From a virus, in the IMG/VR virus record IMGVR_UViG_3300035670_000676, positions 1 through 36,938 of that record: DNA of 36,938 nt. One strand, 5' to 3'. This document shows, piece by piece, positions 1-36,938 of this stretch. Numbering within the stretch: position 1 is the first letter of the stretch; each line of letters starts with the position of its first letter. The notes beneath the pieces are model-generated. The model was not told the DNA's origin. It made no database searches and saw only the letters and a program-made list of their open reading frames with translations. The translations under genes were made by a program, and so were the position numbers.

Positions 1-127
1 AGGTTCGCGGTTTGCGGTGTCGCTGTATCGACAATCTCCAAACCTTGCTCCGCCAGGCGATGGGCGGCCAACTCGCGTGCGTGCGCGAGGCCGCGCCTCC
101 TCTCGGGCGTTTTCTCCGCCCACGCGT
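1..127. repeat. Terminal direct repeat, left copy (circular closure)
   Basis: These 127 bases are identical to 36812-36938. The reading frame of the terminase small subunit runs uninterrupted from 389 through this repeat and on into the sequence left of 36812. This shows that the two ends are joined in nature. The exact length of 127 equals a common maximum k-mer in short-read assembly. I therefore read it as an assembly overlap of a circular or circularly permuted genome rather than a biological terminal repeat, though a true short terminal redundancy cannot be excluded from sequence alone. Confidence 0.95.
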
Positions 128-3469: not shown

Positions 3470-3495
3470 AAAAAACCCCGACTAAAAAGTCGGGG
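3470..3495 (-). terminator. Rho-independent terminator after the SSB-like gene
   Basis: On the minus strand a perfect eight-base stem (CCCCGACT pairing with AGTCGGGG, at 3488-3495 and 3476-3483) with a four-base loop is followed by six Ts (3470-3475). It lies between the stop at 3514 and the start of the primase-helicase at 3447. It should end or attenuate the nuclease/SSB transcript ahead of the replication gene. Confidence 0.92.
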
Positions 3496-5700: not shown

Positions 5701-5942
5701 TGCTCACCCCTTGCTCGTATGGCTTCGGCGCACATCGCTGCAAGACCTTTGGTGTAATACTTTTGAAAAACTTCTTGCCGTTCCTCGCACAACTCCGCAC
5801 ACGCCTCACGCTCTGCTGCTGCGACAAGTGCAGCGAAGCGTTCAAGCTCAGAAACGCCACAGCGATGCGGCTCTGTCCAGCCGTTACTAGCTCGAAGCAG
5901 TCCAGCCTCTTTGGCCATATCAATAATGTCGTCTTTTGTCAT
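5697..5942 (-). CDS. Small conserved-type phage protein
   Basis: This encodes 81 residues. The pattern MTKDDIIDMAKEAGL, LERFAALVAAAEREAC and AEAIRARGEQ is common among small phage genes of unknown function in betaproteobacterial and related phages. It is probably helical, with three cysteines in the second half. Start and stop overlap the neighbouring genes as ATGA. No function can be assigned. Confidence 0.78.
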   Translation of the reverse strand: MTKDDIIDMAKEAGLLRASNGWTEPHRCGVSELERFAALVAAAEREACAELCEERQEVFQKYYTKGLAAMCAEAIRARGEQ

Positions 5943-6196
5943 AAATACCTCCTCGCCAAAAGGCTAAACACAACGCTGATGGCGGCACAAGCAAACCCAG
6001 TAAATATCCACTCTGGAACCTTCAACGGATTCCAGACCCAAGGTGATTTGTTGAACGTCATGATGTCTTGAATCCACACTTGATCGGATTCGACATAATT
6101 GATTTGTGGCGGCTGATACGCGCTACCTATCTTCACGCGTTTTTCTGGTTTCACTTCAATCCATTCAACCGTGTTTCCTCTGATTATCCAAGCCAT
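5939..6196 (-). CDS. Small protein with C-terminal membrane segment
   Basis: This encodes 85 residues. The first 60 are soluble and contain many aromatic residues. A single hydrophobic segment at about 64-80 (FTGFACAAISVVFSLLA) is followed by RRYL, so the topology is probably N-outside with the basic end inside. It overlaps the HNH gene upstream by 32 bases and the next gene by four. The role is unknown. Small membrane proteins of early phage operons often affect the host envelope or superinfection, but nothing here shows that. Confidence 0.6.
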   Translation of the reverse strand: MAWIIRGNTVEWIEVKPEKRVKIGSAYQPPQINYVESDQVWIQDIMTFNKSPWVWNPLKVPEWIFTGFACAAISVVFSLLARRYL

Positions 6197-6557
6197 GCTT
6201 TTTTCCCTTTCGCGCTCTCACGCGTTCCTGTTGATGTACTAACCGATGGCAATTGCTGCATAGCGCAATGCACTTTGTTTTTGCTTCTTCGATTGCTTGC
6301 TTAACTGCGTTGTTTTGCAGCAAGCGTACAATGCGTTTCTTGTCTGTCTTGATGACGTGATGAAAGTCAAGCAACACTGGATTAGAAATACCGCAATGCG
6401 CGCAAGCGTATTGGGACTTGAATTCGTCCCATTCTTTTCTTGCTTTTTGTTTTTGCTCTTTTGCTTTGGCGAGGTAGCTTTCGCGGTTCTTCTCAAAAAA
6501 TCGTTTTGAGTAGACCCGTTGCTTGGCTTTCCTAACCTCTGGATCTTTATAAGGCAA
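6165..6557 (-). CDS. HNH endonuclease (TTG start)
   Basis: This encodes 130 residues. I choose a TTG start at 6557 because it gives an N-terminus MPYKDPEVR like that of many small phage HNH proteins. The only in-frame ATG (6632) lies deep in the upstream gene, and no internal Met exists. The N-terminal 45 residues are basic and helical. The HNH core has zinc ligands C52 and C55, the DFHH motif at 64-67, then C100, C103 and the CHRLVH stretch to H108. The family makes DNA nicks or breaks and occurs as free-standing homing-type nucleases or packaging helpers. Being away from the terminase genes, homing or recombination fits better. Confidence 0.82.
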   Translation of the reverse strand: MPYKDPEVRKAKQRVYSKRFFEKNRESYLAKAKEQKQKARKEWDEFKSQYACAHCGISNPVLLDFHHVIKTDKKRIVRLLQNNAVKQAIEEAKTKCIALCSNCHRLVHQQERVRARKGKKHGLDNQRKHG

Positions 6558-6984
6558 GGTCTCGGCGCCAATAGATCGTGCGCTCCGATCCCCATGGCTT
6601 GCTTGGCTCGAATAACTTGAACCCGCACGCAATAAGCGAATTGGCGGACGCTGGATTGTCCGTTGTATCGCTCACCGCCCAGCGCATACCAATGGACCTG
6701 GCAAACGCTGTGCGTCTTGAGATCAAACGCTTTTGGATACCAAAACCTTGGTGCGACAACATCACGCCAGCACGCGCCAGGTAAACCGTATCCTCCCACT
6801 GACTCGATTGCATCAAGCAACCAAACCCGCAAGCCTCTTCCCCGCGGTACGCTACCCACCACCATCCTTGTGATGGGCATATCACGCGATCCGCTGGCAG
6901 GATCTCGCGTTGCATATAACGCAACAGCACTTCCGTGTTTGGTGTGCTCTCCACTTGCTTGACGTGGTAATTCCTGCGTTTCAT
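6547..6984 (-). CDS. GNAT-family N-acetyltransferase
   Basis: This encodes 145 residues. The acetyl-CoA-binding motif A is visible at 71-88 (RAGVMLSHQGFGIQKRLI), with the Q/R-x-x-G-x-G/A signature as QGFG. NPASANSLIACGFKLFE near residues 111-125 is the usual GNAT motif B ending. The substrate could be a protein, an aminoglycoside-like small molecule, or an amino sugar. The last is attractive given the sugar enzymes just upstream, but this is inference. It overlaps the HNH gene by 11 bases. Confidence 0.85.
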   Translation of the reverse strand: MKRRNYHVKQVESTPNTEVLLRYMQREILPADRVICPSQGWWWVAYRGEEACGFGCLMQSSQWEDTVYLARAGVMLSHQGFGIQKRLISRRTAFARSIGMRWAVSDTTDNPASANSLIACGFKLFEPSKPWGSERTIYWRRDLAL

Positions 6985-7023: not shown

Positions 7024-7230
7024 TCAGTCTTGTGTCTTGTCATTTGTCCAGTAACGCGACCAAAGCATTTCTTTTTTGCGTTTGGCGTAACGCTCAACAA
7101 GCCACTTCGTTGATCGCTCCATGCCGCCAGCACAAACCCACCACTCTTTCTTCGAGTAGTGCGGCACGAACATCACATCGCCAAGCATATAAACGGGCTG
7201 TTCAATGACTTCTTGTTTTTCTTCACTCAC
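7024..7230 (-). CDS. Small unknown protein (GTG start)
   Basis: This encodes 68 residues starting with GTG at 7228-7230, which overlaps the stop of the upstream gene and has GAGAGGG about six bases upstream. The alternative ATG at 7263 would place 11 hydrophobic residues inside the upstream gene and lacks this site. The protein is rich in Trp, Lys and Tyr (YSKKEWWVCAGGMER) and ends in a charged tail. I see no known domain. Confidence 0.6.
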   Translation of the reverse strand: MSEEKQEVIEQPVYMLGDVMFVPHYSKKEWWVCAGGMERSTKWLVERYAKRKKEMLWSRYWTNDKTQD

Positions 7231-8407
7231 AACGATCCCTCTCACTAAGAAAATCAGAAACACGCGCTGTCCATGTCAGATGGTCAACGCGACAGGAATA
7301 AATCTTATAAGAAATGTTTTCCCTCAAATCCATCAAGCGCTCAACGCACTGATGGATTTGCTTTTCAAATGACTCGTCACCTTGACCGTGTTCATAATTT
7401 GCAACCGATGGATTGACACTCTCTTCATTCAAATTGCTCATGACGGGTCGATTCATCATGAGCGCTGTACACATGCGATCATGTGGCGATGAATCCCAAT
7501 TCGCATCAAAGTTAACTAAGCCGGCATAATGTTGGACCATCACGCCAAGCGCTGCATGGGGTTGCTGTCCCACATAACGCCAATTGTCCACCTCGCCAAA
7601 ATGTTCAAACCAACCAGTTCCTGCAATATCAACGGGCTTGCCTTTGAGCGCTGACATCACACGCAATCTTCGATGGCGTTTCATCGCCGCATCCAACTTG
7701 CAATAAGCATCAAGCAACAATGGCTCTTCGAGCAATCGTTGATATTCATCATTGATGTTCATTACATGGCTAAGAACGTTCCAATGGCTTTCGCTAAAAC
7801 TTTTCTCTGGGTAAAACAATTCAACGTCATCTTTGAGATCAATCGTTTGGCGAACCTCGGCCACGGTTTCTTTGAGCGTGTCTTTGATCGTTGCAAGCTC
7901 ATTGCCAACACCGCCAAACACCAACAAGCGATCAGGAAACATGGGTTCTTCTTGAATCGGTGGCGCTGCAAACGCTCCAAATCCCATGCCTGGCGCTTTG
8001 ATGTCCATGTAAATCGGCGTGACTTCATCAGCAAACACGATGTTCAGCGCACCCTTTTCGCGTGACTTTTTGATGTACGCTTTGACTTCAGGCACGCGAT
8101 TCAAATCGTTATGAAATGAATCAATGACGTAATACGTCACGCGCTTGCCCATGTCTGCTGCCGCTTCCCAAAGGTAAACATCACCCAACTTCACCTTAAG
8201 CGGCAATGCGCCAACAATGAAAAGCTCATCAATGCTCAATAAAGTTCCTATACCGGCAAATTGCCGGTCTAAATCTTGATTGATATTGACAATGTGTGGC
8301 TCAAATCCGCAAGCCGCAAAACCCACTGCGATTTGGCGAGCAAAGTTTTCTGTTACTCCTGTCGGATGCGCGTTTGTCATCACAACAATGCGTCTTGTCG
8401 TTTTCAT
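7223..8407 (-). CDS. GT-B-like glycosyltransferase
   Basis: This encodes 394 residues. The N-terminal part alternates strands and helices as in Rossmann folds (RRIVVMTNAHPTGVTENFA). The region at about 255-330 resembles the nucleotide-sugar-binding domain of group 1 or CgeB-like glycosyltransferases. It has GKPVDIAGTGWF, then WRYVGQQPHAALGVMVQHY, then a stretch with CTALMMNRPVMSN, in the place where these enzymes have the conserved acidic and loop residues. The catalytic residue cannot be named with confidence. It is coupled by ATGA to the GT-A-like gene upstream and belongs to the four-gene sugar cassette. Confidence 0.65.
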   Translation of the reverse strand: MKTTRRIVVMTNAHPTGVTENFARQIAVGFAACGFEPHIVNINQDLDRQFAGIGTLLSIDELFIVGALPLKVKLGDVYLWEAAADMGKRVTYYVIDSFHNDLNRVPEVKAYIKKSREKGALNIVFADEVTPIYMDIKAPGMGFGAFAAPPIQEEPMFPDRLLVFGGVGNELATIKDTLKETVAEVRQTIDLKDDVELFYPEKSFSESHWNVLSHVMNINDEYQRLLEEPLLLDAYCKLDAAMKRHRRLRVMSALKGKPVDIAGTGWFEHFGEVDNWRYVGQQPHAALGVMVQHYAGLVNFDANWDSSPHDRMCTALMMNRPVMSNLNEESVNPSVANYEHGQGDESFEKQIHQCVERLMDLRENISYKIYSCRVDHLTWTARVSDFLSERDRCE

Positions 8408-9054
8408 GCGCCCACCCTAAACCATTGCTTTGCGTAATGTGGTCTGTTCTCCACAATCCATGGCGCTGCATCGCCAACCAGTTGCTTGACATCCGTTCCA
8501 ACGGTTTGCGATCCAGCGTGATGAACATACGCGCGCGACACGAAATGCTTGTAACCTTTTTCTCGCAAGTCAGCGCAAATCACATCATCGCTAAACCAAT
8601 TGATCGGCGGGAAACGGCACTCGGCAAACGCTTTAGCTGATAAGTAAGCAAAGATCGGGCTGATCACGTCCACGGGTTTGATGGCGTCTTCACTCTTCCA
8701 ACGGCACATCTCAATACCGTCACCCTCGTTGCGCGGCACTCGGATGTTTTGTGGCGGTCTAACGAAATCACTTCTTGCCGCCACGAAACCAAGATTCTTG
8801 CAAACCTTTTTCAGTGCCTGAACGTCATCGAGTATTAACGCCATCGTTGTTGGAGTCAGCACGATGTCATCGTTGGCGACAATAAACCCTTCATCGTCAC
8901 CAGCAAATGCGTCAATCGCTGCGTTGTAGTCATCGCCAAAGTTCCCATGGGCGCCATGGAAGATGCAGATCTGTACGCCTTTGGCGTAATGAAAAACGCT
9001 GCTTTTCATAACGTGAAGTGACTGACTTCCTGTTGTTGAAACAATGATCTTCAT
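8404..9054 (-). CDS. GT-A-like glycosyltransferase
   Basis: This encodes 216 residues beginning at the ATG at 9054. That ATG overlaps the upstream stop as ATGA and gives an N-terminal strand MKIIVSTTG. The short acidic motif VANDDIVL at 59-66 sits where GT-A enzymes hold the DXD metal site. FSDDVICADL at 154-163 matches the acidic catalytic-base region of GT2-like enzymes, and VHHAGSQT follows at 177. It is shorter than typical GT2 enzymes, so it may be a minimal catalytic domain. It is probably soluble, with no membrane segment. Confidence 0.65.
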   Translation of the reverse strand: MKIIVSTTGSQSLHVMKSSVFHYAKGVQICIFHGAHGNFGDDYNAAIDAFAGDDEGFIVANDDIVLTPTTMALILDDVQALKKVCKNLGFVAARSDFVRPPQNIRVPRNEGDGIEMCRWKSEDAIKPVDVISPIFAYLSAKAFAECRFPPINWFSDDVICADLREKGYKHFVSRAYVHHAGSQTVGTDVKQLVGDAAPWIVENRPHYAKQWFRVGA

Positions 9055-9269
9055 GCTGGCCAATGCCCAATGCGTCGCAAGCAATCAATGGCGCGTCTGC
9101 GTACCACGGCATCTTGAAAACGCCCGTATTGCTCCAAACCTTTGAGCGTTTCAATGCAATCGTTCAAATCTTCAAGCGCATGTGAATACTTGCTCTCAAG
9201 ATCACTAACCGTCTTAGCGCGTTTCTTTGGCGCTTCGGGCTGTTGATCGTCAATCGTGAATTCATCCAT
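9051..9269 (-). CDS. Small helical protein within the sugar cassette
   Basis: This encodes 72 residues starting at the ATG at 9269, with AAGGAA upstream. The first 20 residues are acidic and then basic. The remainder (LESKYSHALEDLNDCIETL, then LEQYGRFQDAVVRRRAIDCL) is likely a two-helix bundle. It overlaps the methyltransferase gene by eight bases and the GT-A-like gene by four. The function is unknown. Its fixed place between enzymes suggests a partner or regulator rather than an unrelated insert. Confidence 0.6.
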   Translation of the reverse strand: MDEFTIDDQQPEAPKKRAKTVSDLESKYSHALEDLNDCIETLKGLEQYGRFQDAVVRRRAIDCLRRIGHWPA

Positions 9270-10470
9270 AAAGCGGTTCCTTATAAGTTTGTGGAAACGG
9301 GGTAACAACTGAATCATAATCTTCAAAGTTGCGCAGCATTTGCAACTTTCGTATGAGTTCCGCCTTGAAATTCCATGCGCCAATGATGAATAAACACTTC
9401 TCGCGCAACTGCGCCACGTTGCTTAAGGCAATGATTTGTTGCGTTGAGTTCGGCAGAAACTTGCCAATCTTCATGGGCGATTCATCCACAATGACGTGAG
9501 GATCATCATTAACGGCTTGCATCAACGTCACGGCTTTGGCGGCACACCCAACCATCACCACGATATAGCCATCACGCTTGGCCTGCTTAATGATTGAGCG
9601 CATGGATTGAATATTGCGCGTCACGGCATCCGTGAAACGCGCACCGTCAGCAAATGAATAACGCTTGATGCTTCCTACGTTCCAGCGACCTTCCTCGAAA
9701 CGCTCTGGATCTGGATAAGCATCGCGCTTGCATACCGCGGCAAGCATTGATCCGCCATGCACACTAACGCATTGCGTCCACGCCACACGCATGTTGGCGT
9801 GCGAGCAGGCAATGTTGAATGAAGTGATGGTGAAGAAGGAAAAGTGCTCGTGATAAATCGTGTCATATTCGCCGTTCTCTAGCATGTGCATTTGGCTTAC
9901 TTGAATGAACGCCACACCATCATCTTCAAGCGCATCATGGATGCCTTTTAAGAAGTCAATCGGCTTATCGTTGTGCGCCAACACGTTCATGGCGATGATC
10001 ACGCCGTACTTTTGATTACCTGTGTCGAATGGCCAATAGTCTTGCGTGACATACACACCTTTGGCGGCTGACTGCGCTACCAGGTTCTTGGCAGGCTCTA
10101 CGCCTTCGACGTACTTGCAACCTCGGTCTTTAAGTTTTCTTAATAACGTTCCATCATTCGATGCTATCTCTAAGATAGCTTGATCTTCATAGTGACGCGC
10201 CACGTTGCTAGCGAACCAATCAAAGTATTCGTTAAGCGTGTTGCTCGTGCCGCTGACGTACAAGTATTTGTCAAATAGCGCTTTGGCGTCGTAAGCAACT
10301 TTCTGCATAACGTGCGTACAGTCTTTGCACATTTGCGCTGCCAACTGCGCGCATTGAATGAATGTGTTCGGGTGGTCTTGCAAAGCATTTGCCGGTGGTT
10401 GATCGCCAAGGTCAAAGATGGTTTTCATATCGCGTGACTGGCAGACAAGGCATTCAGTAATTCGTTTCAT
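9262..10470 (-). CDS. Zinc-binding C-methyltransferase of the NDP-sugar type
   Basis: This encodes 402 residues. N-terminal zinc-binding cysteines are at C7, C10, C48 and C51. A class I SAM-binding motif ILEIASNDGTLL lies at 99-110, followed by GVIIAMNVLAH at 156-166. The motif YHEHFSFFT at 206-214 is the signature His-Glu-His region of the family that C-methylates NDP-keto-deoxysugars. The C-terminal third is the extra Rossmann-like domain usual for these proteins. Domain order and length match the roughly 400-residue family. The ATG at 10470 gives this N-terminus; further upstream the frame lies inside the epimerase gene. The nearby SDR and glycosyltransferases support a sugar substrate. 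Confidence 0.85.
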   Translation of the reverse strand: MKRITECLVCQSRDMKTIFDLGDQPPANALQDHPNTFIQCAQLAAQMCKDCTHVMQKVAYDAKALFDKYLYVSGTSNTLNEYFDWFASNVARHYEDQAILEIASNDGTLLRKLKDRGCKYVEGVEPAKNLVAQSAAKGVYVTQDYWPFDTGNQKYGVIIAMNVLAHNDKPIDFLKGIHDALEDDGVAFIQVSQMHMLENGEYDTIYHEHFSFFTITSFNIACSHANMRVAWTQCVSVHGGSMLAAVCKRDAYPDPERFEEGRWNVGSIKRYSFADGARFTDAVTRNIQSMRSIIKQAKRDGYIVVMVGCAAKAVTLMQAVNDDPHVIVDESPMKIGKFLPNSTQQIIALSNVAQLREKCLFIIGAWNFKAELIRKLQMLRNFEDYDSVVTPFPQTYKEPLYG

Positions 10471-11257
10471 AGGCTCGTTTGAAGTGTTCGCATCGCTCTG
10501 CAAGTGAGAACAACTGCGGAATTGTCGGGAGCGAGAACGAATAAGTGCCATCATCCTCGCCAAATGCCACTGGGACTTTGTGAGCATGTGCAACCTCATG
10601 GGCAAGCTCGCCAATGGTGAGCGAATAAGAAGCAACGGGAATTAATCCCTGCACCTGATCGTCATCCATGATTTCTAAGATGCGATCCGCCAAATCATCA
10701 TGGAATAAGATGCTTCGCATGGCGCTTGGATTCGTAACGCGCACAACGCCTTGTTCTATCGCTGAACGGTTCATCGCGTTGAAAATCAAATGCCATCGCA
10801 TCTTTGGCGACCAACCGCTGACCGTTCCCATGCGCAAGCCAACAACGCGCTTTCCCATATACTTAGCCACCAAGTCGAATGACAACTTGGAAGCGTCATA
10901 AGCGTTTTCGCGCTGCTCATCAGCAATCACACTTGGCGATGTGTCGCGTTTTGACAACAACGAACCTGTTGAAGCGTAGATCAAGCGAGTGTGCGGTTTG
11001 ATGCGCTCAAGAAGACTTAGTGGAAACACAACGTTCTCTGCGATGGCGCGCGACGGTTCCATCTTGGCGTCAGCAACGTTTGACGTGCCGGCGAAGAACA
11101 AGATTTCATCAAACGCTGCAAGCACTGACGTTTGCATGTCCAAGTAATCCATGCCCGTCTTCAGATCGCACGCAACAACATTCACTTCGCCGGCAATGTT
11201 GGCAACTAACTGACTGCCAACATAACCTTCCGACCCAATAACTAAAACGCGCTTCAT
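10454..11257 (-). CDS. NAD-dependent epimerase/dehydratase (extended SDR)
   Basis: This encodes 267 residues. The Rossmann motif GSEGYVG is at 8-14, and the SDR active site YDASK is at 120-124 with S96 and T97 before it. It is shorter than full nucleotide-sugar epimerases (about 310-340), with a reduced C-terminal substrate domain. The likely reaction is oxidation, epimerisation or dehydration of an NDP-sugar, with NAD bound at the N-terminus. It is the first gene of the cassette and overlaps the C-methyltransferase by 17 bases, so the two probably act in sequence. Confidence 0.88.
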   Translation of the reverse strand: MKRVLVIGSEGYVGSQLVANIAGEVNVVACDLKTGMDYLDMQTSVLAAFDEILFFAGTSNVADAKMEPSRAIAENVVFPLSLLERIKPHTRLIYASTGSLLSKRDTSPSVIADEQRENAYDASKLSFDLVAKYMGKRVVGLRMGTVSGWSPKMRWHLIFNAMNRSAIEQGVVRVTNPSAMRSILFHDDLADRILEIMDDDQVQGLIPVASYSLTIGELAHEVAHAHKVPVAFGEDDGTYSFSLPTIPQLFSLAERCEHFKRAYETNY

Positions 11258-11445
11258 CGAATCTTATCAAGCGTTGCCAGCGCTGCACGCTTCACTTCAT
11301 CGCTGATGGCGTAACCATAGTCATCAGGACTCGTTAGGTGGCCAATGAATTGACGCGCAACGCGCAACTTGTTATCCGATTCAGCCGCCAATTGGCGTGT
11401 GTATCGCAACAACTCTTTTAGGTTTTCAATCTCTTGTGTGCTCAT
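11254..11445 (-). CDS. Small helical unknown protein
   Basis: This encodes 63 residues from the ATG at 11445, inside the last codons of the RuvC-like gene (20 bases shared). It is charged and mostly helical (STQEIENLKELLRYTRQLA), with no cysteine or membrane segment. It is coupled by ATGA to the epimerase gene. No function can be assigned. The first in-frame ATG at 11466 would lengthen the overlap without gain. Confidence 0.6.
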   Translation of the reverse strand: MSTQEIENLKELLRYTRQLAAESDNKLRVARQFIGHLTSPDDYGYAISDEVKRAALATLDKIR

Positions 11446-11920
11446 CCATAACCCCATAAAGACCAATCAAAGCGGCATCAGCGCGCCCATCATCCTTTTT
11501 GCGCGAGAACGCCGACGCGTGTTGTGGAAACATTTGTTGCGCTAATGCCCTTGCGCCATCCTTGCCGCCTGTAAGGCGCACCTTGCGCTGCCAGGTTAGC
11601 GGCTGCACAAAGTGATAAGGAATCTGCAAAGATGCAAGCACGCCCTCGATGTTTCCAAGCGACCTTCCAAAACTAAACATCGAAACGACACCTTGGCCAG
11701 GCATGGCGGACACTTGTTCAATGTAAGCAGTTACATCATGCTCAATCGTTAGTGCCGCCAAATGTGTGTGTAGCTCGTGTGGCGACACAAAGTTTTTGAC
11801 CGCCTTTCCAACTTGGCGCTGTACCAATGGCATGTCAATCACATCAACAAGTTTTTTACCGTCCAGCGTGGCAATGCCACCGCTGATACCAGGGTCAATA
11901 CCAACAATGAGTTTTTTCAT
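11426..11920 (-). CDS. RuvC-like Holliday junction resolvase
   Basis: This encodes 164 residues. The RNase H-like fold is shown by GIDPGISGG (D9), an acidic residue after a strand in AYIEQV (E68), and the C-terminal KKDDGRADAALIG with D143/D144 and D148, the usual metal-binding set. Phages use such enzymes to clear branched DNA before packaging. It is the first gene after a strong terminator, so a promoter is expected. The best candidate upstream is TGGACA at 11952-11957 with a weak GATAAG 16 bases on. This leaves almost no leader, so I do not call it. Confidence 0.9.
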   Translation of the reverse strand: MKKLIVGIDPGISGGIATLDGKKLVDVIDMPLVQRQVGKAVKNFVSPHELHTHLAALTIEHDVTAYIEQVSAMPGQGVVSMFSFGRSLGNIEGVLASLQIPYHFVQPLTWQRKVRLTGGKDGARALAQQMFPQHASAFSRKKDDGRADAALIGLYGVMDEHTRD

Positions 11921-11976: not shown

Positions 11977-12003
11977 AAAAAAAAGACCCGCAAGCGGCGG
12001 GTC
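11977..12003 (-). terminator. Rho-independent terminator ending the virion operon
   Basis: On the minus strand GACCCGC and GCGGGTC (11997-12003 and 11985-11991) form a seven-base stem with a five-base loop, followed by eight Ts (11977-11984). It lies 30 bases after the stop of the last internal virion-type gene and separates late genes from the RuvC-led early genes. Confidence 0.93.
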
Positions 12004-12032: not shown

Positions 12033-13907
12033 CTACTCTACACCAATACCAAGGTATGGCGCAAGACCAATTTCACGCGCTTTTCTGCGCAATTGCGTTG
12101 CAACGGGCTTGATGCTCATCGTGGTGGCTTTCTGCATCATTTGAGCCGCCAACTTTGGATCAAGCATGGCTTCAACCATCAAGCGTGAAATTTGCTCATC
12201 AGGTAGTTTGTAAAGAAAATCAAGTGGACGCGCCAGCGTGCGAAGCGTTGTGTTGGACGCCAACGCGTCAGAGAAAACAGCGCCAATCAAGTTGGCGGTT
12301 GAAAAGTTTTTGAATGTATCGCTTCCAGGTCTTTGCGCCACTGCTGATGTGATGGATGCTGAACGATCAAGATCGCGCATCAAATCGTCAACTTGCCTTG
12401 CCTGTGACTCTGAGAGCGTCTTGTTAAGCTCTTCTGCGCGTGATCTTAACTGTTGGCGTAACTTGGCCTGGCTGAATATATCCATGCCTGTCGTTGCATC
12501 TGGAGCCGCCATAGTTGAGCGCGCTTTAACTTCTTGCAACACACGCATTTGGTCAATGGGCCTACTCATCTTTGAGTATTGCGACAAGTAATCCTTAAAT
12601 CCTGGCGATGCTGACTCAAGCACATCATCCAAAACATCACGCACTGCAATCAATTCGCGTGACGCCAAACGCAAGCCAGGGTCAGACTTTTCAAGCGCAC
12701 CTGATATGGCGTCATTAATGTCCTTGCGGACGTTGTAAATGCGCTCTGGCGTATCGCCAGCGTTCTCAATGCGTCCGCGTAACCACGTCATGGCTTTTTC
12801 AACGGGTTGGCGATTACCTGTTGCGCCAGACAGTACATTCTCAACGGCAGCAGTGATGGGTGTCGTTGCAACGGGTCCAAATTCGTTCAGTGATTTGGCG
12901 AATGCCGCTTCACGCATGGGAGCTGTAACCGCTGAACGTTTGGCTTCCGCCGCGGCGATTGCCTCCGGCCCGCCGCCAGATAAACGGTTTAGCAACTGCA
13001 TTCTTGCTGCATTGCTTTCCGATATGCGTTGACCAATTAAGTTTTGGACATCAAGCGTTTTTGCTAATGGGTTTTGCAGCGCCATCAAGCCAGGGTCCAT
13101 GGACGCTTCAGCAGTCATGGGGCGTGAGCCAGGCACATACTCTTGTGCACGCAATAGCGCTTGTTGTGCGCGCTCAGGATTCGTGGCGGAACGTTGCAAC
13201 ACTTGACCGGCAATCACTTCTCTACCTTCTTGCGTGAATGGCGATACAACCTGCCTTGCACGCTGCGCAACGTTTCTTCCAACGATTGGCGCTGTACCTG
13301 GTGCAACGGAACCAATAACGCCAAGACCGAGTTGCGCCAAAGGTCCAAGCCCTTCTTCGCGCCCTAGACTGGCGGCAGTGGCGCCTGTGCCAGCGGCAAT
13401 GGCTTGCGTTCGCGGATCTGTTGCAAGCGTCCTTAATACTTCTCTTAAAACGGGTGATGTCACGGCTTGCGATGCCAAGCGAGCGCCACCGGCAAGCGCG
13501 CCTGTGCCAGTAAGTGCTTGCGCAACGTCTTGCGATATGCGCTCTTGCGGCGTTTCTGCCTCCGGCAGTCCTGCCGCTGTAAGCAATCCTTGAAGTGATT
13601 GCGATGGCGGCGTGGCAATTTGGCGCCCTGCCGCTGCATTCATTAACGCCACCAAAGGATCTGCAAACATGGTTGGCAGTGATGCGGCACCCGTGATGGC
13701 GGCTCTTGCTGTAAGTCCTAACTGCCTTCCAATGCCGCCAGCCGATGGTGGTGATACTTGTTGCGCTTGCCTAGATTGCTGAAGTGCTTGTTGTACTGGA
13801 GAGCGATCAACGATTATTTGGCGAATGGCCTTTTCAATGTCTTGATTGGCCATGTCATCAGGAAAATCAACCGATCCAATGTTTGGTATTTCAACGGTTT
13901 TTGCCAT
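12033..13907 (-). CDS. Large internal or ejection-type virion protein
   Basis: This encodes 624 residues from the ATG at 13907, with GGTGGAG upstream. The N-terminus MAKTVEIPNIGSVDFPDD is a short motif I recognise from the starts of many phage virion proteins of the internal or ejection class. The rest is Ala- and Gln-rich and largely helical, with hydrophobic stretches near residues 75-110 and 165-210 that could insert into membranes during DNA ejection. Its place at the end of the late operon, after the tail genes and next to another Gln/Ala-rich large protein, is where short-tailed phages keep ejection proteins. There is no catalytic motif. Confidence 0.6.
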   Translation of the reverse strand: MAKTVEIPNIGSVDFPDDMANQDIEKAIRQIIVDRSPVQQALQQSRQAQQVSPPSAGGIGRQLGLTARAAITGAASLPTMFADPLVALMNAAAGRQIATPPSQSLQGLLTAAGLPEAETPQERISQDVAQALTGTGALAGGARLASQAVTSPVLREVLRTLATDPRTQAIAAGTGATAASLGREEGLGPLAQLGLGVIGSVAPGTAPIVGRNVAQRARQVVSPFTQEGREVIAGQVLQRSATNPERAQQALLRAQEYVPGSRPMTAEASMDPGLMALQNPLAKTLDVQNLIGQRISESNAARMQLLNRLSGGGPEAIAAAEAKRSAVTAPMREAAFAKSLNEFGPVATTPITAAVENVLSGATGNRQPVEKAMTWLRGRIENAGDTPERIYNVRKDINDAISGALEKSDPGLRLASRELIAVRDVLDDVLESASPGFKDYLSQYSKMSRPIDQMRVLQEVKARSTMAAPDATTGMDIFSQAKLRQQLRSRAEELNKTLSESQARQVDDLMRDLDRSASITSAVAQRPGSDTFKNFSTANLIGAVFSDALASNTTLRTLARPLDFLYKLPDEQISRLMVEAMLDPKLAAQMMQKATTMSIKPVATQLRRKAREIGLAPYLGIGVE

Positions 13908-13909
13908 GA

Positions 13910-15352
13910 TCAATACTCCACCAAACGCCCGTTCTCCCACTTATAGCGCTTTCCTGATGACGGTGGCGCTTGTGGCGGAACGGCTTGAACCTGTGACATA
14001 GCATTGCCAGCGGATGTTTTCATGGCGTTAATTGCAATCTGTCTTGAGCGTGACTTTTGAGCAATCACTTCTGGCGAATCACCGATTTGCGGGAAATAAG
14101 TTTTTATTTCACGCGCCATCTCTTCATCGCCAATCACGGCGCCTGATTCCTTACGAAGTTTTGAGCGCACCCAGTCTTCTTGCGCCTGGCGCACTTGTTG
14201 CTGCGCTGGCGTCATCAATGATCGCTCTGCAACGCCACCAACAAGCGGAATTGCGCCAACCGCGGTTGCAATAGTTCCTGCGCGCTGCGCTTGCGATGGC
14301 GCTTGGCCGATAATGCTTTCGGCTTCAATCATGCGGCTTGCGTAACCAGCAGCGTTCAACTGTCCTTCAGTGGGTTTTGTTCCGCCGCCCTTGACAACTT
14401 CTCCAGTTGGCGTTGTAACGGGTAGCGCTGCCCCACCAGGCGTAACAGGTACATACTGCAAACCTTGATCTGTTTCTTTGATCTGATAATTACCGCGGTT
14501 AAATTCTTGCTGGCGAAGACCAAGTCCTGCGCGCTCAAGGCCAACGCGTTGATTTTCAAGTCTAACGCGCTCTTCTTCAAACCCAAGTCGTTTAAGGTCA
14601 GCAGGTCCAATGGCTTTGGGTATCCGCTGAACAATGGTTCCTGTGCCTTTATCCATGATCAAGATTTCCGCGCCTGTATCAACTTGCGTTTGATCTGGAT
14701 TTGGCTTGACGTCAAGAACGCGAATGTTGCCGCGCTCACTCACAATGTAAGTTGAAGGTTGGCCGCCAATAATGCCAGACTGTGGCGCTCCAAACTTTTC
14801 TTCGGCTAGCTTGGCGGCATACTCCACGCCCTTTTCATAAGGCATTGAAGCAATCAAAGCGCGTTGCTCTTTTGTTAGATTCGCAAAAGGTTGTTGCGCC
14901 ATCGCTGATTCTTGCGCCGCTGCCGCGGCTTGCGTTGGTCCGCCACCCTGTGCAAGCGCTTGTTGACCAGCGGCAAATTGTTGCGCCTGTGTTGGACCTT
15001 GGATAGCTTGGCGGAATGCTTGCTCTTGTTGCTGGTTGCGCTGCATTTGTTGAAACTGCGCACCAAGAATCTGTTGTTGCAACGCTTGCTGTCTTGCCTG
15101 TTGCAACCCTTCAGCGGCAGTGCCGCCACGCGCTAACGAAGATCCAATATTTGCAAGCGTCATCCAGCGTTGGCGCATACGCTCTTCTTCATCCATTGCT
15201 GGCGTGGGCAATCCTGGTATCGTTGAAATGCGATCAAGTCCAGCGCCAAAACGTTGCAGGACATTTGGCGATGCACCTTGCATAGGTGATTCTGGCGAAT
15301 TCGGCAGCGTGCTATACGATGGTCCGCCAAAAAGAAAGTCTAAAAGCGCCAT
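13910..15352 (-). CDS. Gln/Ala-rich internal virion-type protein
   Basis: This encodes 480 residues. Residues about 80-165 are strongly Gln/Ala-rich (LQQARQQALQQQILGAQFQQ) and probably form long helices or coiled coil. A middle beta-like part with ILIMDKGTGTIVQRIPK follows, then a charged helical stretch. The C-terminus ends KRYKWENGRLVEY, a tail motif typical of phage structural proteins of this kind. It is an inferred ejection or core protein, since it sits next to the 624-residue gene with a two-base gap. No enzymatic motif is visible. Confidence 0.6.
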   Translation of the reverse strand: MALLDFLFGGPSYSTLPNSPESPMQGASPNVLQRFGAGLDRISTIPGLPTPAMDEEERMRQRWMTLANIGSSLARGGTAAEGLQQARQQALQQQILGAQFQQMQRNQQQEQAFRQAIQGPTQAQQFAAGQQALAQGGGPTQAAAAAQESAMAQQPFANLTKEQRALIASMPYEKGVEYAAKLAEEKFGAPQSGIIGGQPSTYIVSERGNIRVLDVKPNPDQTQVDTGAEILIMDKGTGTIVQRIPKAIGPADLKRLGFEEERVRLENQRVGLERAGLGLRQQEFNRGNYQIKETDQGLQYVPVTPGGAALPVTTPTGEVVKGGGTKPTEGQLNAAGYASRMIEAESIIGQAPSQAQRAGTIATAVGAIPLVGGVAERSLMTPAQQQVRQAQEDWVRSKLRKESGAVIGDEEMAREIKTYFPQIGDSPEVIAQKSRSRQIAINAMKTSAGNAMSQVQAVPPQAPPSSGKRYKWENGRLVEY

Positions 15353-20813: not shown

Positions 20814-21416
20814 CTATGCCTCCAGCTTCAAACCAGTTAAATCCATTTCCTCGCCAACTGTGCCAACGGGAAACGTGTTAAACGATAGCGATATGCGTGT
20901 CTGCTCACCCTGAACCGTAGGCACCATGTGCGTTAAGGATGAGGGAAAAAGAATCAACCGGCCAATGAATGCCTCAAACCACCATGACTCTGAGTTGTAC
21001 GCATTCCAGTTGTCGGTGGGAAACTTGATCTGCTGCCAACCGTCTTTGTAGAAGTAAATCCTGTCATCAGGATTGGTCTGCAAGTAAAACACGCCTGAGA
21101 TGTAGCTATTCGGGTGGGCATGTTTGTGGTGATACTGACCCTGCTCAGAGTAATTGCACCAGCTTTGTGTGATGCGTAGGGATACGTTGTGCTTGGGATC
21201 GACCGTGGCTTTGAAGTATTCAGCCACGCTGTCCTCAATGAATGATCTGAGACTTGTCATAGCCGGATTGCGAAGCACGAAGTTATCCGTGCTTGTTGTG
21301 TTGCCCATGTTAGGCCGAGTCTCAAGCTCACGCACAAAGAACATCTCCTCGTCCGTGAGTTCACGGCCAAGGTCTGCAAAACCTACAGCAGTTGGGAATA
21401 AGTTATGTAGGTTCAT
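20814..21416 (-). CDS. 2OG-Fe(II) oxygenase family protein
   Basis: This encodes 200 residues. Iron ligands fit H99 and/or H101 in the KHAHPNS stretch and H163 in FPSSLTHMV, and R174 in GEQTRISLSFN would hold 2-oxoglutarate. The pattern SYISGVFYLQ followed by GRLILFPS is that of the small putative 2OG oxygenases common in aquatic phages. The substrate is unknown; proteins, sugars and nucleic acids are possible. It lies between tail fibre genes and the lysis genes, so a tail or surface substrate, such as proline or sugar hydroxylation, is worth testing. Confidence 0.82.
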   Translation of the reverse strand: MNLHNLFPTAVGFADLGRELTDEEMFFVRELETRPNMGNTTSTDNFVLRNPAMTSLRSFIEDSVAEYFKATVDPKHNVSLRITQSWCNYSEQGQYHHKHAHPNSYISGVFYLQTNPDDRIYFYKDGWQQIKFPTDNWNAYNSESWWFEAFIGRLILFPSSLTHMVPTVQGEQTRISLSFNTFPVGTVGEEMDLTGLKLEA

Positions 21417-24876: not shown

Positions 24877-25497
24877 TTAGTAGCTCCTTGCTCTCATGCG
24901 CGGCGTTGTGCCGCTAAAGTTTGACCTTTGCTCTTCAAGCATCAGATCGTTGAAGGCTTCCTTATATAGAGTGCCCCAAGTGGTAATGCGATCATCATCG
25001 CGCAAGTAAGGTGCGCTTTGAACCAATGCGCCATATAGATACATGGCTGGCGATTTCGCAAGCAACCAGTTGCTTGTATTGCTATCCGAAAGCGCCGGAA
25101 TCTTTTTGTAGTACGACATTTCAACCGTGTATTCGCCACCAGGCGTTGGGATCACTTCAAACGTTTGACCGACAATTGAGTAATACTTGGGTTCGTTGGC
25201 GGCTGCAAAGTAAGTGGATCGCAAATCGTCGGCTTGCTCGTTGCTCACAAATGACAGCTTCATAGGCGTTGCTGTGTTCAACTGTATGTTGATCATTTGC
25301 AGGAAATCGGCAGGCAACTCGGTGTACTGCGTATCAAGTGATGCCGTTGCGCGCTGCACCATATCGCGCGTTCTCACATTGCGATTGAACGTTGCTTCCG
25401 CCAACTCGATGAATGTCGGAATGACGGACGTCAAGTCATCGCGGTTCAACCAATCCGCAATACTTGTTTTCAATCCGCTGTAAGTATTCAGTGCCAT
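24877..25497 (-). CDS. Head-tail adaptor protein
   Basis: This encodes 206 residues from the ATG at 25497, which overlaps the glycosyltransferase stop as ATGA. It is helical in the first half (SGLKTSIADWLNR, FIELAEATFNRNVRTRDM), then beta-like (YTELPADFLQMINIQL, GQTFEVIPTPGGEYTVEMSY), then helical (AMYLYGALVQSAPYLRDDDR). This is the pattern of SU10-type adaptor or gp4-like connector proteins that bind under the portal. The context agrees. Confidence 0.82.
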   Translation of the reverse strand: MALNTYSGLKTSIADWLNRDDLTSVIPTFIELAEATFNRNVRTRDMVQRATASLDTQYTELPADFLQMINIQLNTATPMKLSFVSNEQADDLRSTYFAAANEPKYYSIVGQTFEVIPTPGGEYTVEMSYYKKIPALSDSNTSNWLLAKSPAMYLYGALVQSAPYLRDDDRITTWGTLYKEAFNDLMLEEQRSNFSGTTPRMRARSY

Positions 25498-26201
25498 CAA
25501 GCCACCTTTTGAGATTCTTCGACCGGCGCGCCAGCTTGTTTTCTGCGCTCATCTTCCATCGGTCGGAGTGCCCAGGTATGCTCGTGCTTATACTCAAAGG
25601 TTCCGATGTGTCCAATTTGCTTGGACAGGTCATGATCAATATACAACGGAATGCCGTTCTCCCGCAACAGCTTGCAGAAATAGACATCTTCGCCCATGTA
25701 ACCTTTTGCCGCGGTATCCCATGGCGTTGCAAACCATGGCATGTCAATGACTTTGAAAACGTTGATGTCCACCAGCATCACGCCAGTGCCAACCATATCA
25801 ACTTGCTCCAAACCCGTGTCTTCGGGCATCGAGTAACGCAATACTTTTCTTCCTGTTGCTTTATCGTAGTTGCCAGCCGTGGGGCCGGTTGGCATTCTGC
25901 GCCTGGCGCAGTTTGCCGCCACAACGCACTCGCCATGGGCCAGTAGGCGCGCGATGGTGTCAGCCGGAAAGCGCATGTCGCTATCAAGAAACAGCAGATA
26001 GTCTGCATTGGCGTGGATAGCGTTCATGACTAATTCGGTGCGCTGCGAGCAAAGCAATGTACCTTGGCTCATCAGCAAATTCACAATGTCACCCGTGTTG
26101 CCAATGTGGTGGCTAACAGCATTCACCAAGTCAAAGGTGAACATCGTATGTACTTCATCGCGTGCCGGCACGCAAACAGAAATAATCCGTTTATCAGTCA
26201 T
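25497..26201 (-). CDS. GT-A glycosyltransferase in the head module
   Basis: This encodes 234 residues. It begins with RIISVCVPARDEVH (GT2-like) and has the metal site LDSDM at 72-76 and the acidic base pair ED at 171-172 in YMGEDVYFCKLL. There is no membrane segment. It lies between an accessory head gene and the head-tail adaptor, coupled by one- to four-base overlaps, so it is made with virion proteins. Glycosylation of the capsid or of tail proteins, or of a host glycan, is possible. The acceptor cannot be read from sequence. Confidence 0.82.
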   Translation of the reverse strand: MTDKRIISVCVPARDEVHTMFTFDLVNAVSHHIGNTGDIVNLLMSQGTLLCSQRTELVMNAIHANADYLLFLDSDMRFPADTIARLLAHGECVVAANCARRRMPTGPTAGNYDKATGRKVLRYSMPEDTGLEQVDMVGTGVMLVDINVFKVIDMPWFATPWDTAAKGYMGEDVYFCKLLRENGIPLYIDHDLSKQIGHIGTFEYKHEHTWALRPMEDERRKQAGAPVEESQKVA

Positions 26202-26523: not shown

Positions 26524-26548
26524 AAAAAAGGGCGGGTTTCCCCGCCCC
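26524..26548 (-). terminator. Rho-independent terminator after the capsid gene
   Basis: On the minus strand GGGCGGG (26541-26547) pairs with CCCGCCC (26530-26536) across a four-base loop, followed by six Ts (26524-26529). It lies between the capsid stop at 26563 and the next start at 26521. Partial readthrough would give much capsid mRNA and less of the downstream genes, as in other phages. Confidence 0.92.
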
Positions 26549-36615: not shown

Positions 36616-36938
36616 TCAGCCGTTGTGCGGTGCAGCATCCACCGTGTTGTTCTCGTCGTTTACGGCGTGAACATGATCGACAACACGCGACGCCATCAGG
36701 TGCGCCTGGTTCATGTTGACCTGTACTGCTATCTGTTGCTTTTGCTCGCCATAGGCTTGCTGGTTCCACTTCCCTGCTAACCATTGGCGGTACTTTGATT
36801 GAATGTTCGCTAGGTTCGCGGTTTGCGGTGTCGCTGTATCGACAATCTCCAAACCTTGCTCCGCCAGGCGATGGGCGGCCAACTCGCGTGCGTGCGCGAG
36901 GCCGCGCCTCCTCTCGGGCGTTTTCTCCGCCCACGCGT
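36616..36938 (-). CDS. terS: Terminase small subunit, C-terminal part (continues to 389)
   Basis: This is the 3' part of the gene that starts at 389. Through the shared 127-base end the frame continues without change, so the whole protein has 194 residues. This part holds ARELAAHRLAEQGLEIVDTA, a spacer, and IQSKYRQWLAGKWNQQAYGE, the pattern of the Sf6-like small terminase core. A short variable tail ends AAPHNG. It should not be read as a separate gene with its own start (the TTG at 36882 is only an internal codon). The stop at 36616-36618 is followed by a GC hairpin. Confidence 0.8.
   Translation of the reverse strand, partial: AWAEKTPERRRGLAHARELAAHRLAEQGLEIVDTATPQTANLANIQSKYRQWLAGKWNQQAYGEQKQQIAVQVNMNQAHLMASRVVDHVHAVNDENNTVDAAPHNG
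36812..36938. repeat. Terminal direct repeat, right copy
   Basis: These bases are identical to bases 1-127. Together they mark the join of the circular genome. Deleting one copy gives the unit length of about 36,811 bp. Confidence 0.95.

Follow-up and report, generated by a model that had tools for sequence, protein, structure and literature searches.

Which sugar a compact set of phage-encoded enzymes produces, and to what that sugar is attached, is the question raised by a five-gene cassette at positions 7223-11257 of the viral record IMGVR_UViG_3300035670_000676 (IMG/VR; 36,938 nt, the whole of which is referred to here as the window). A first-pass annotation, made from the sequence alone, had described sugar or glycan enzymes at these positions, linked by overlapping stops and starts, with a small protein of no assigned function among them, and all of these genes were found to be present. 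On the minus strand, from 11257 to 7223, the cassette comprises genes for a short-chain dehydrogenase/reductase (SDR), a nucleoside diphosphate (NDP)-sugar C-methyltransferase (CMT), a 72-aa protein, a GT-A fold glycosyltransferase and a probable GT-B glycosyltransferase, with successive overlaps of 17, 8, 4 and 4 nt. An exact 127-base direct repeat at both contig ends (window 1-127=36812-36938) shows the window to be the complete, circularly assembled genome of a tailed bacterial virus. Once the terminal repeat is discounted, its unique sequence amounts to 36,811 bases, of which the cassette takes up 4035 (11%), in line with the earlier statement that more than a tenth of the genome is spent on it. 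The evidence set out below suggests a cassette for making a methyl-branched deoxysugar and transferring it, with a phage virion protein as the likeliest acceptor, a reading to which we assign a probability of about 45%.

The SDR (267 aa, 10454-11257, minus strand) matches PF01370 (E=2.9e-16) and the nucleotide-sugar epimerase family phrog_540 (E=3.5e-22), and belongs among the extended NDP-sugar reductases/epimerases. It carries the GxxGxxG cofactor motif (GSEGYVGS) and the S/T...YxxxK catalytic set (YASTGS and YDASK), and its core residues are invariant across seven sequences, including alleles and distant phages. The ST[DE]E active-site motif of 4,6-dehydratases (RmlB/Gmd) is absent, the window SDR having STGS and those of other phages SSAS or STLA/STCA. 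As STGS stands in place of the dehydratase motif, the enzyme is read as a reductase or epimerase, and a role as NDP-hexose 4,6-dehydratase is not supported; of the epimerase/dehydratase first proposed, the SDR and epimerase class was thus retained and the dehydratase part dropped.

The CMT (402 aa, 9262-10470, minus strand) starts at an ATG codon (MKRITE); a longer, TTG-started ORF reaching 10635 was judged spurious. Its three Pfam domains occur in chain order and above their cut-offs (PF08421, 34.7 against 31.3 bits; PF13489, 58.9 against 27; PF08484, 55.9 against 23.5), and it aligns at near full-chain coverage with the D-mycarose 3-C-methyltransferase 4rv9 (E=1.6e-30) and with TcaB9 (E=1.2e-21). 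The zinc-binding cysteines C7, C10, C48 and C51 are invariant within its own group, while H166, Y206, E208 and H209 are invariant also in phage relatives at 26-36% identity and align to MtmC and TcaB9. The zinc-binding NDP-sugar C-methyltransferase of the first-pass annotation is therefore borne out by three domains, conserved Cys pairs and the His/YxEH residues, and the protein is assigned to the TylCIII/TcaB9/MtmC type, with a predicted activity to match. A genome scan with a broad profile placed its cellular relatives, at 25-31% identity, across many bacteria and archaea; the same scan with a narrow CMT profile yielded no matches, and no recent donor was found in the genomes scanned, where the best relatives reach just 25-31% identity. 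DNA and protein searches of annotated phages returned only distant CMT homologues, a single SDR homologue and none for GT-A or GT-B.

The GT-A protein (216 aa, 8404-9054, minus strand; NDD metal motif) matched no Pfam or PHROG family. An AlphaFold2 model built with 21 homologues (predicted local distance difference test, pLDDT, 86.8) matched GnT-I in Foldseek (E=2.7e-7), and VIA alignment returned majastridin (Z=16.2 over 191 residues) and GnT-I (Z=15.7 over 177 residues); a viral structure library likewise returned glycosyltransferases. Residues N61-D62-D63, D156, D157 and H179 are invariant in 21 sequences. The predicted fold confirms a nucleotide-sugar enzyme of the GT-A type, as had been proposed, and the protein would represent a phage glycosyltransferase sequence family absent from Pfam and PHROGs. 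Immediately before it in the cassette lies the gene for the 72-aa protein (9051-9269, minus strand), for which no family matched and which has a ratio of non-synonymous to synonymous substitution rates (dN/dS) of about 0.1; in this phage group it always directly precedes GT-A.

The 3'-most gene (394 aa, 7223-8407, minus strand) probably encodes a glycosyltransferase of the CgeB/Glyco_trans_1_2 type, which lends weak support to the GT-B-like assignment made earlier. Weak matches to PF13524 were obtained for 11 of the 12 family members (best E=0.062, below the Pfam cut-off), the match in the one member checked covering C-terminal residues 243-346. When 846 viral ORFs and reversed decoys were ranked with a PF13524 profile built from 29 bacterial members, GT-B homologues of the other cassette allele took ranks 3-11, above every reversed decoy, which is support for the assignment, not proof. 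An AlphaFold2 model from 12 sequences was unusable (pLDDT 40), comparison of the GT-B alignment with mixed bacterial alignments by hhalign produced no match, and a GT-B profile search matched no solved structure.

The same five-gene order, which the first-pass annotation had suggested looking for in other phages, is kept in 21 other viral contigs. Two cassette alleles occur, with proteins either near-identical or 59-78% identical; dN/dS of the five genes is 0.08-0.16 between alleles and 0.02-0.06 within an allele. All five genes are under strong purifying selection, and the conserved order in 21 other contigs together with the dN/dS of 0.08-0.16 argues against a chance arrangement and bears out the first-pass view of the cassette as a unit. 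Compared with window DNA, the source contig of L176 is 95-98% identical near and within RuvC, 63-82% over the cassette and 97% below about 6690. The same allele replacement was seen in the near-identical backbone of L020, with a different left border, and in L174 the window's SDR, CMT and 72-aa gene are kept, the change of allele coming at about 8.9 kb, inside GT-A or just ahead of it. This pattern of identity indicates that whole cassettes, or the transferase half alone, are exchanged between close relatives, and such block-wise exchange looks like variation in something exposed.

Two sister genomes, L193 and L194, allow the cassette to be divided further. Both belong to genomes that are complete, with terminal repeats of 127 and 93 bases, and that encode a RuvC 74% identical to that of the window. 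At the cassette site, they carry small proteins, among them the 72-aa protein next to GT-A, while SDR and CMT are lacking; no CMT was found anywhere in either genome with PF08484, and a PF13712 glycosyltransferase (E=9.5e-15) takes the place of GT-B. Conversely, SDR directly precedes CMT, in the same order and at about 30% identity, in the unrelated viral contigs L077, L079-L082, L086, L088 and L089. L086 and L088 have long O-antigen-like, surface-glycan-like clusters around the pair, which include glycosyltransferase-like genes, an RmlC-type dTDP-sugar epimerase, transketolase-like halves and an aminotransferase-like gene; the epimerase gene near the pair in L086 is of the dTDP-4-dehydrorhamnose-epimerase type (PF00908, E=1.9e-38), and L088 has a near-identical gene. 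The recurrence of the pair and these epimerase neighbours indicate that SDR-CMT travels as a unit, in a 6-deoxysugar context. Since GT-A occurs without the pair in L193 and L194 and the pair recurs in unrelated contigs, the donor-making genes and the transferase part are separate modules that are joined in the window.

A third glycosyltransferase, Anp1/GT62-like, is encoded at 25497-26201 (minus strand; PF03452, E=7.5e-7, above the cut-off; phrog_1574, E=2e-15), between the genes for the major capsid protein and the tail tube, and occupies the same place in MW202711. In the L043 group and, as judged from sequence, also in L031, a member of the phrog_1574 family directly adjoins GT-A, so that this family is a recurrent partner of GT-A in other phages. 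In both L031 and L042 a GT-A relative adjoins tail fibre genes, and in L039 one lies between terminase and portal. As a separate observation, the window encodes a 2-oxoglutarate (2OG)-Fe(II) oxygenase (20814-21416, minus strand; PF13759/TIGR02466, phrog_81) after tail-fibre-like genes in the tail region, and L042 has an oxygenase of that family flanked by a collagen-like tail fibre and a GT-A::GT2::TPR fusion, an arrangement suggesting that the hydroxylation of a fibre protein might be linked to its glycosylation.

The transcriptional setting was assessed from predicted terminators. An intrinsic terminator (GACCCGC-cgctt-GCGGGTC-T8, 11985-12003, minus strand) separates RuvC from the last gene on the virion side. 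In relatives its stem covaries with pairing kept (GACCCGC/GCGGGTC, TGCCCGC/GCGGGCA and TGCCGCC/GGCGGCA), always followed by T7-8. It is one of three strong minus-strand terminators, each with a T run and a perfect stem 7-8 pairs long, the others lying directly after the capsid gene (26530-26547) and before the primase/helicase gene (3476-3495). As the conserved terminator cuts off the virion genes, the cassette is predicted to be read together with RuvC, a nuclease and other replication-region genes as far as the 3476-3495 terminator, apart from the virion genes. A promoter consensus scan gave no more matches than expected by chance.

The SDR and CMT families and the GT-A fold support the first-pass proposal that a branched-chain or methylated sugar is made and transferred. 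The enzyme classes of these three proteins follow from homology or fold; we infer the substrates, reaction order, product, GT-B fold and acceptor, as follows. The host would provide an NDP-4-keto-6-deoxyhexose, of the dTDP type from RmlB or the GDP type from Gmd, since neither a dehydratase nor a nucleotidyltransferase was found among the phage proteins scanned. CMT would then place a methyl group from S-adenosylmethionine on a ring carbon beside the keto group, and SDR would reduce the 4-keto group (or epimerise), giving a stable NDP-C-methyl-6-deoxyhexose. Finally, GT-A and GT-B, probably with the 25497-26201 transferase, would pass the methyl sugar and a neighbouring sugar to the acceptor. 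A route of this kind, with a CMT and a 4-ketoreductase acting on NDP-4-keto-6-deoxyhexose, has been proposed for virenose (PMC3539893).

The likeliest single acceptor would be a virion protein (head, tail tube or fibre), with host envelope glycan a close second and DNA least likely. The virion has a slight edge over host glycan because the cassette has no membrane component, a partner transferase is encoded among virion genes, and GT-A relatives lie near tail-fibre and terminase-portal genes. Virion glycosylation is known in mycobacteriophages, going by the summaries in PMC12619734 and PMC11256854. Several points weigh against a virion acceptor or against the pathway as drawn. Transcription with RuvC and the replication genes would suit an early role no less than a virion role, and in L043-type phages GT-A lies among replication genes. 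The GT-B match to its Pfam family is below the cut-off, and the window's own GT-B allele is not among the top matches listed in the ranking with the bacterial PF13524 profile. Phage and host are uncultured, and neither the regiochemistry of methylation nor the nucleotide carrier can be read from sequence. The broader proposition, that small tailed phages coat their virions with a self-made C-methyl-branched deoxysugar through an unclassified GT-A, block exchange of the cassette yielding serotype-like particle glycan types, is unlikely.

The same enzymology could instead act on host envelope glycan (lipopolysaccharide (LPS), O-antigen or a cytoplasmic-side lipid-linked precursor), the altered surface blocking adsorption of competing phages or binding of progeny to debris. 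Expression with RuvC and the replication genes would suit such action before lysis, and the SDR-CMT pair of L086 and L088 lies inside large surface-glycan-like clusters. LPS is known to contain C-methylated deoxysugars (virenose, PMC3539893), cellular relatives of the CMT occur in many bacteria and archaea, and phage genes for O-antigen sugar nucleotides have been reported in metagenomes (PMC12911398). However, a flippase, a polyprenyl-phosphate transferase and any other membrane protein are missing from the cassette, which sets it apart from Gtr serotype conversion; no transmembrane segments are expected in its five proteins, the best 19-residue hydropathy being 1.74, within a CMT domain. No integrase or repressor was recognised in the window, so that perhaps just one lytic cycle would be available for such a benefit, and GT-A partners are located among virion genes. 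We regard a host-glycan acceptor as a tentative and somewhat unlikely alternative.

Attachment to phage DNA for nuclease protection, as with the arabinose of RB69, appears improbable. The cassette does lie beside RuvC and replication genes, much as the candidate sugar-nucleotide module of RB69 lies between DNA polymerase and UvsX (PMC6024577), and phage glycosyltransferases that hypermodify DNA are known, according to work cited in PMC12619734. Yet neither a Tet/JBP (PF12851) nor a thymidylate-synthase/hydroxymethylase (PF00303) enzyme occurs in the complete genome or its relatives, and the 2OG oxygenase at 20814 is of the PF13759/TIGR02466 type, not Tet/JBP, and lies in the tail region, although a hydroxylase of an undescribed kind may be present. 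Among the targets that the first-pass annotation had listed, phage DNA thus lost ground; for the host surface, a Gtr-type serotype conversion did so too. A general metabolic add-on, serving a polysaccharide, a small-molecule glycoside or a modified host protein without surface or virion decoration, would accord with the use of the enzyme family in antibiotic sugar pathways, but is very doubtful given the 11% of a small genome devoted to the cassette and a block-wise allele exchange that resembles variation in something exposed.

Nearly all genes of the window lie on the minus strand. RuvC (11426-11920, minus strand; phrog_1770, E=8.7e-36), a predicted Holliday junction resolvase, is the first gene of the transcription unit and is separated from SDR by a small conserved protein (11254-11466, minus strand; phrog_30070, E=3e-4; conserved in L193 and L194), the likely start of which is an ATG at 11445, giving 63 aa. 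After GT-B come a conserved 79-aa protein (7024-7263, minus strand; a homologous 80-aa ORF has the same position in L193 and L194), a GNAT acetyltransferase (6547-6984, minus strand; PF00583, E=1.7e-5) and an HNH-like protein. The GNAT gene noted downstream in the first-pass annotation is real; its membership of the pathway was not upheld, as the 79-aa gene intervenes and GNAT keeps its place where SDR and CMT are absent. In L193 and L194, RuvC and GT-A have between them a small protein (L193 8674-8925) that probably contains a membrane segment; an apparent homologue with the KIGSAY.PP motif is encoded at window 5939-6196 (minus strand), downstream of HNH, indicative of a moved gene. A further variable region (12033-15352, minus strand) consists of two long genes on the virion side (635 and 480 aa); L171 and L176 have non-homologous DNA in its place, between flanks that are still 95-98% identical.

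The major capsid protein was assigned to the SU10_MCP family by profile search, and the closest annotated relatives were environmental Caudoviricetes together with Sinorhizobium phage phiM5. Capsid protein relatives were found in 9 of 289 sampled alphaproteobacteria (best 61% identity) and in 1 of 369 genomes (42% identity) from the class of a betaproteobacterial genome, a higher frequency in the former that is only a hint as to the host. A GT-A query of eight of the nine alphaproteobacterial genomes with capsid protein relatives gave no matches.

Although phage glycosyltransferases are common, it is rarely known which donors they use and what they modify. In the window, the two genes of a compact donor module (CMT and reductase) are coupled to transferases, and complete natural genomes that have or lack the donor genes, or that carry swapped transferases, make the link between gene set and glycan directly testable. 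The third glycosyltransferase, the RuvC transcription unit, the allele block exchange and the sister genomes without SDR-CMT are features beyond the first-pass annotation, and the literature searched yielded no publication describing a C-methyl-sugar cassette in a phage.

Among known systems, the window CMT shares with TylCIII, TcaB9 and MtmC the three-domain layout (Methyltransf_13, _23 and _14), the zinc cysteines, the catalytic His and YxEH; it differs in being about 25-36% identical to other phage and cellular relatives, and in its setting, a phage cassette without genes for a 4,6-dehydratase, a nucleotidyltransferase or 2-deoxygenation. Noviose biosynthesis likewise follows a C-methyltransferase and 4-ketoreductase route (NovU/NovS). 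The GtrABC serotype-converting cassettes of temperate phages are glycosyltransferase cassettes that vary between relatives, as does that of the window, which in contrast has no GtrA flippase or membrane-bound GtrB and carries soluble enzymes and sugar synthesis genes instead. The proposal for virenose of Coxiella LPS (PMC3539893) has the same two-step logic, except that in the window phage the precursor steps must be host-supplied. RB69, with its arabinosyl-hydroxymethylcytosine (PMC6024577), also appears to encode a sugar-nucleotide module and a transferase near replication genes; no base-hydroxylating enzyme was found in the window phage, and the sugar chemistry differs. With the virion glycosylation of mycobacteriophage Che8 and its relatives (Freeman 2023, cited in both PMC12619734 and PMC11256854) the window phage has in common that it encodes transferases, which here may act on virion proteins; it differs in its dedicated sugar-nucleotide pair, and its glycan is a predicted one. 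Phage glycosylation genes are thus already familiar, and the novelty here lies in combining a phage-encoded module for a C-methyl-sugar donor with an unclassified GT-A family, in a cassette that is exchanged block-wise.

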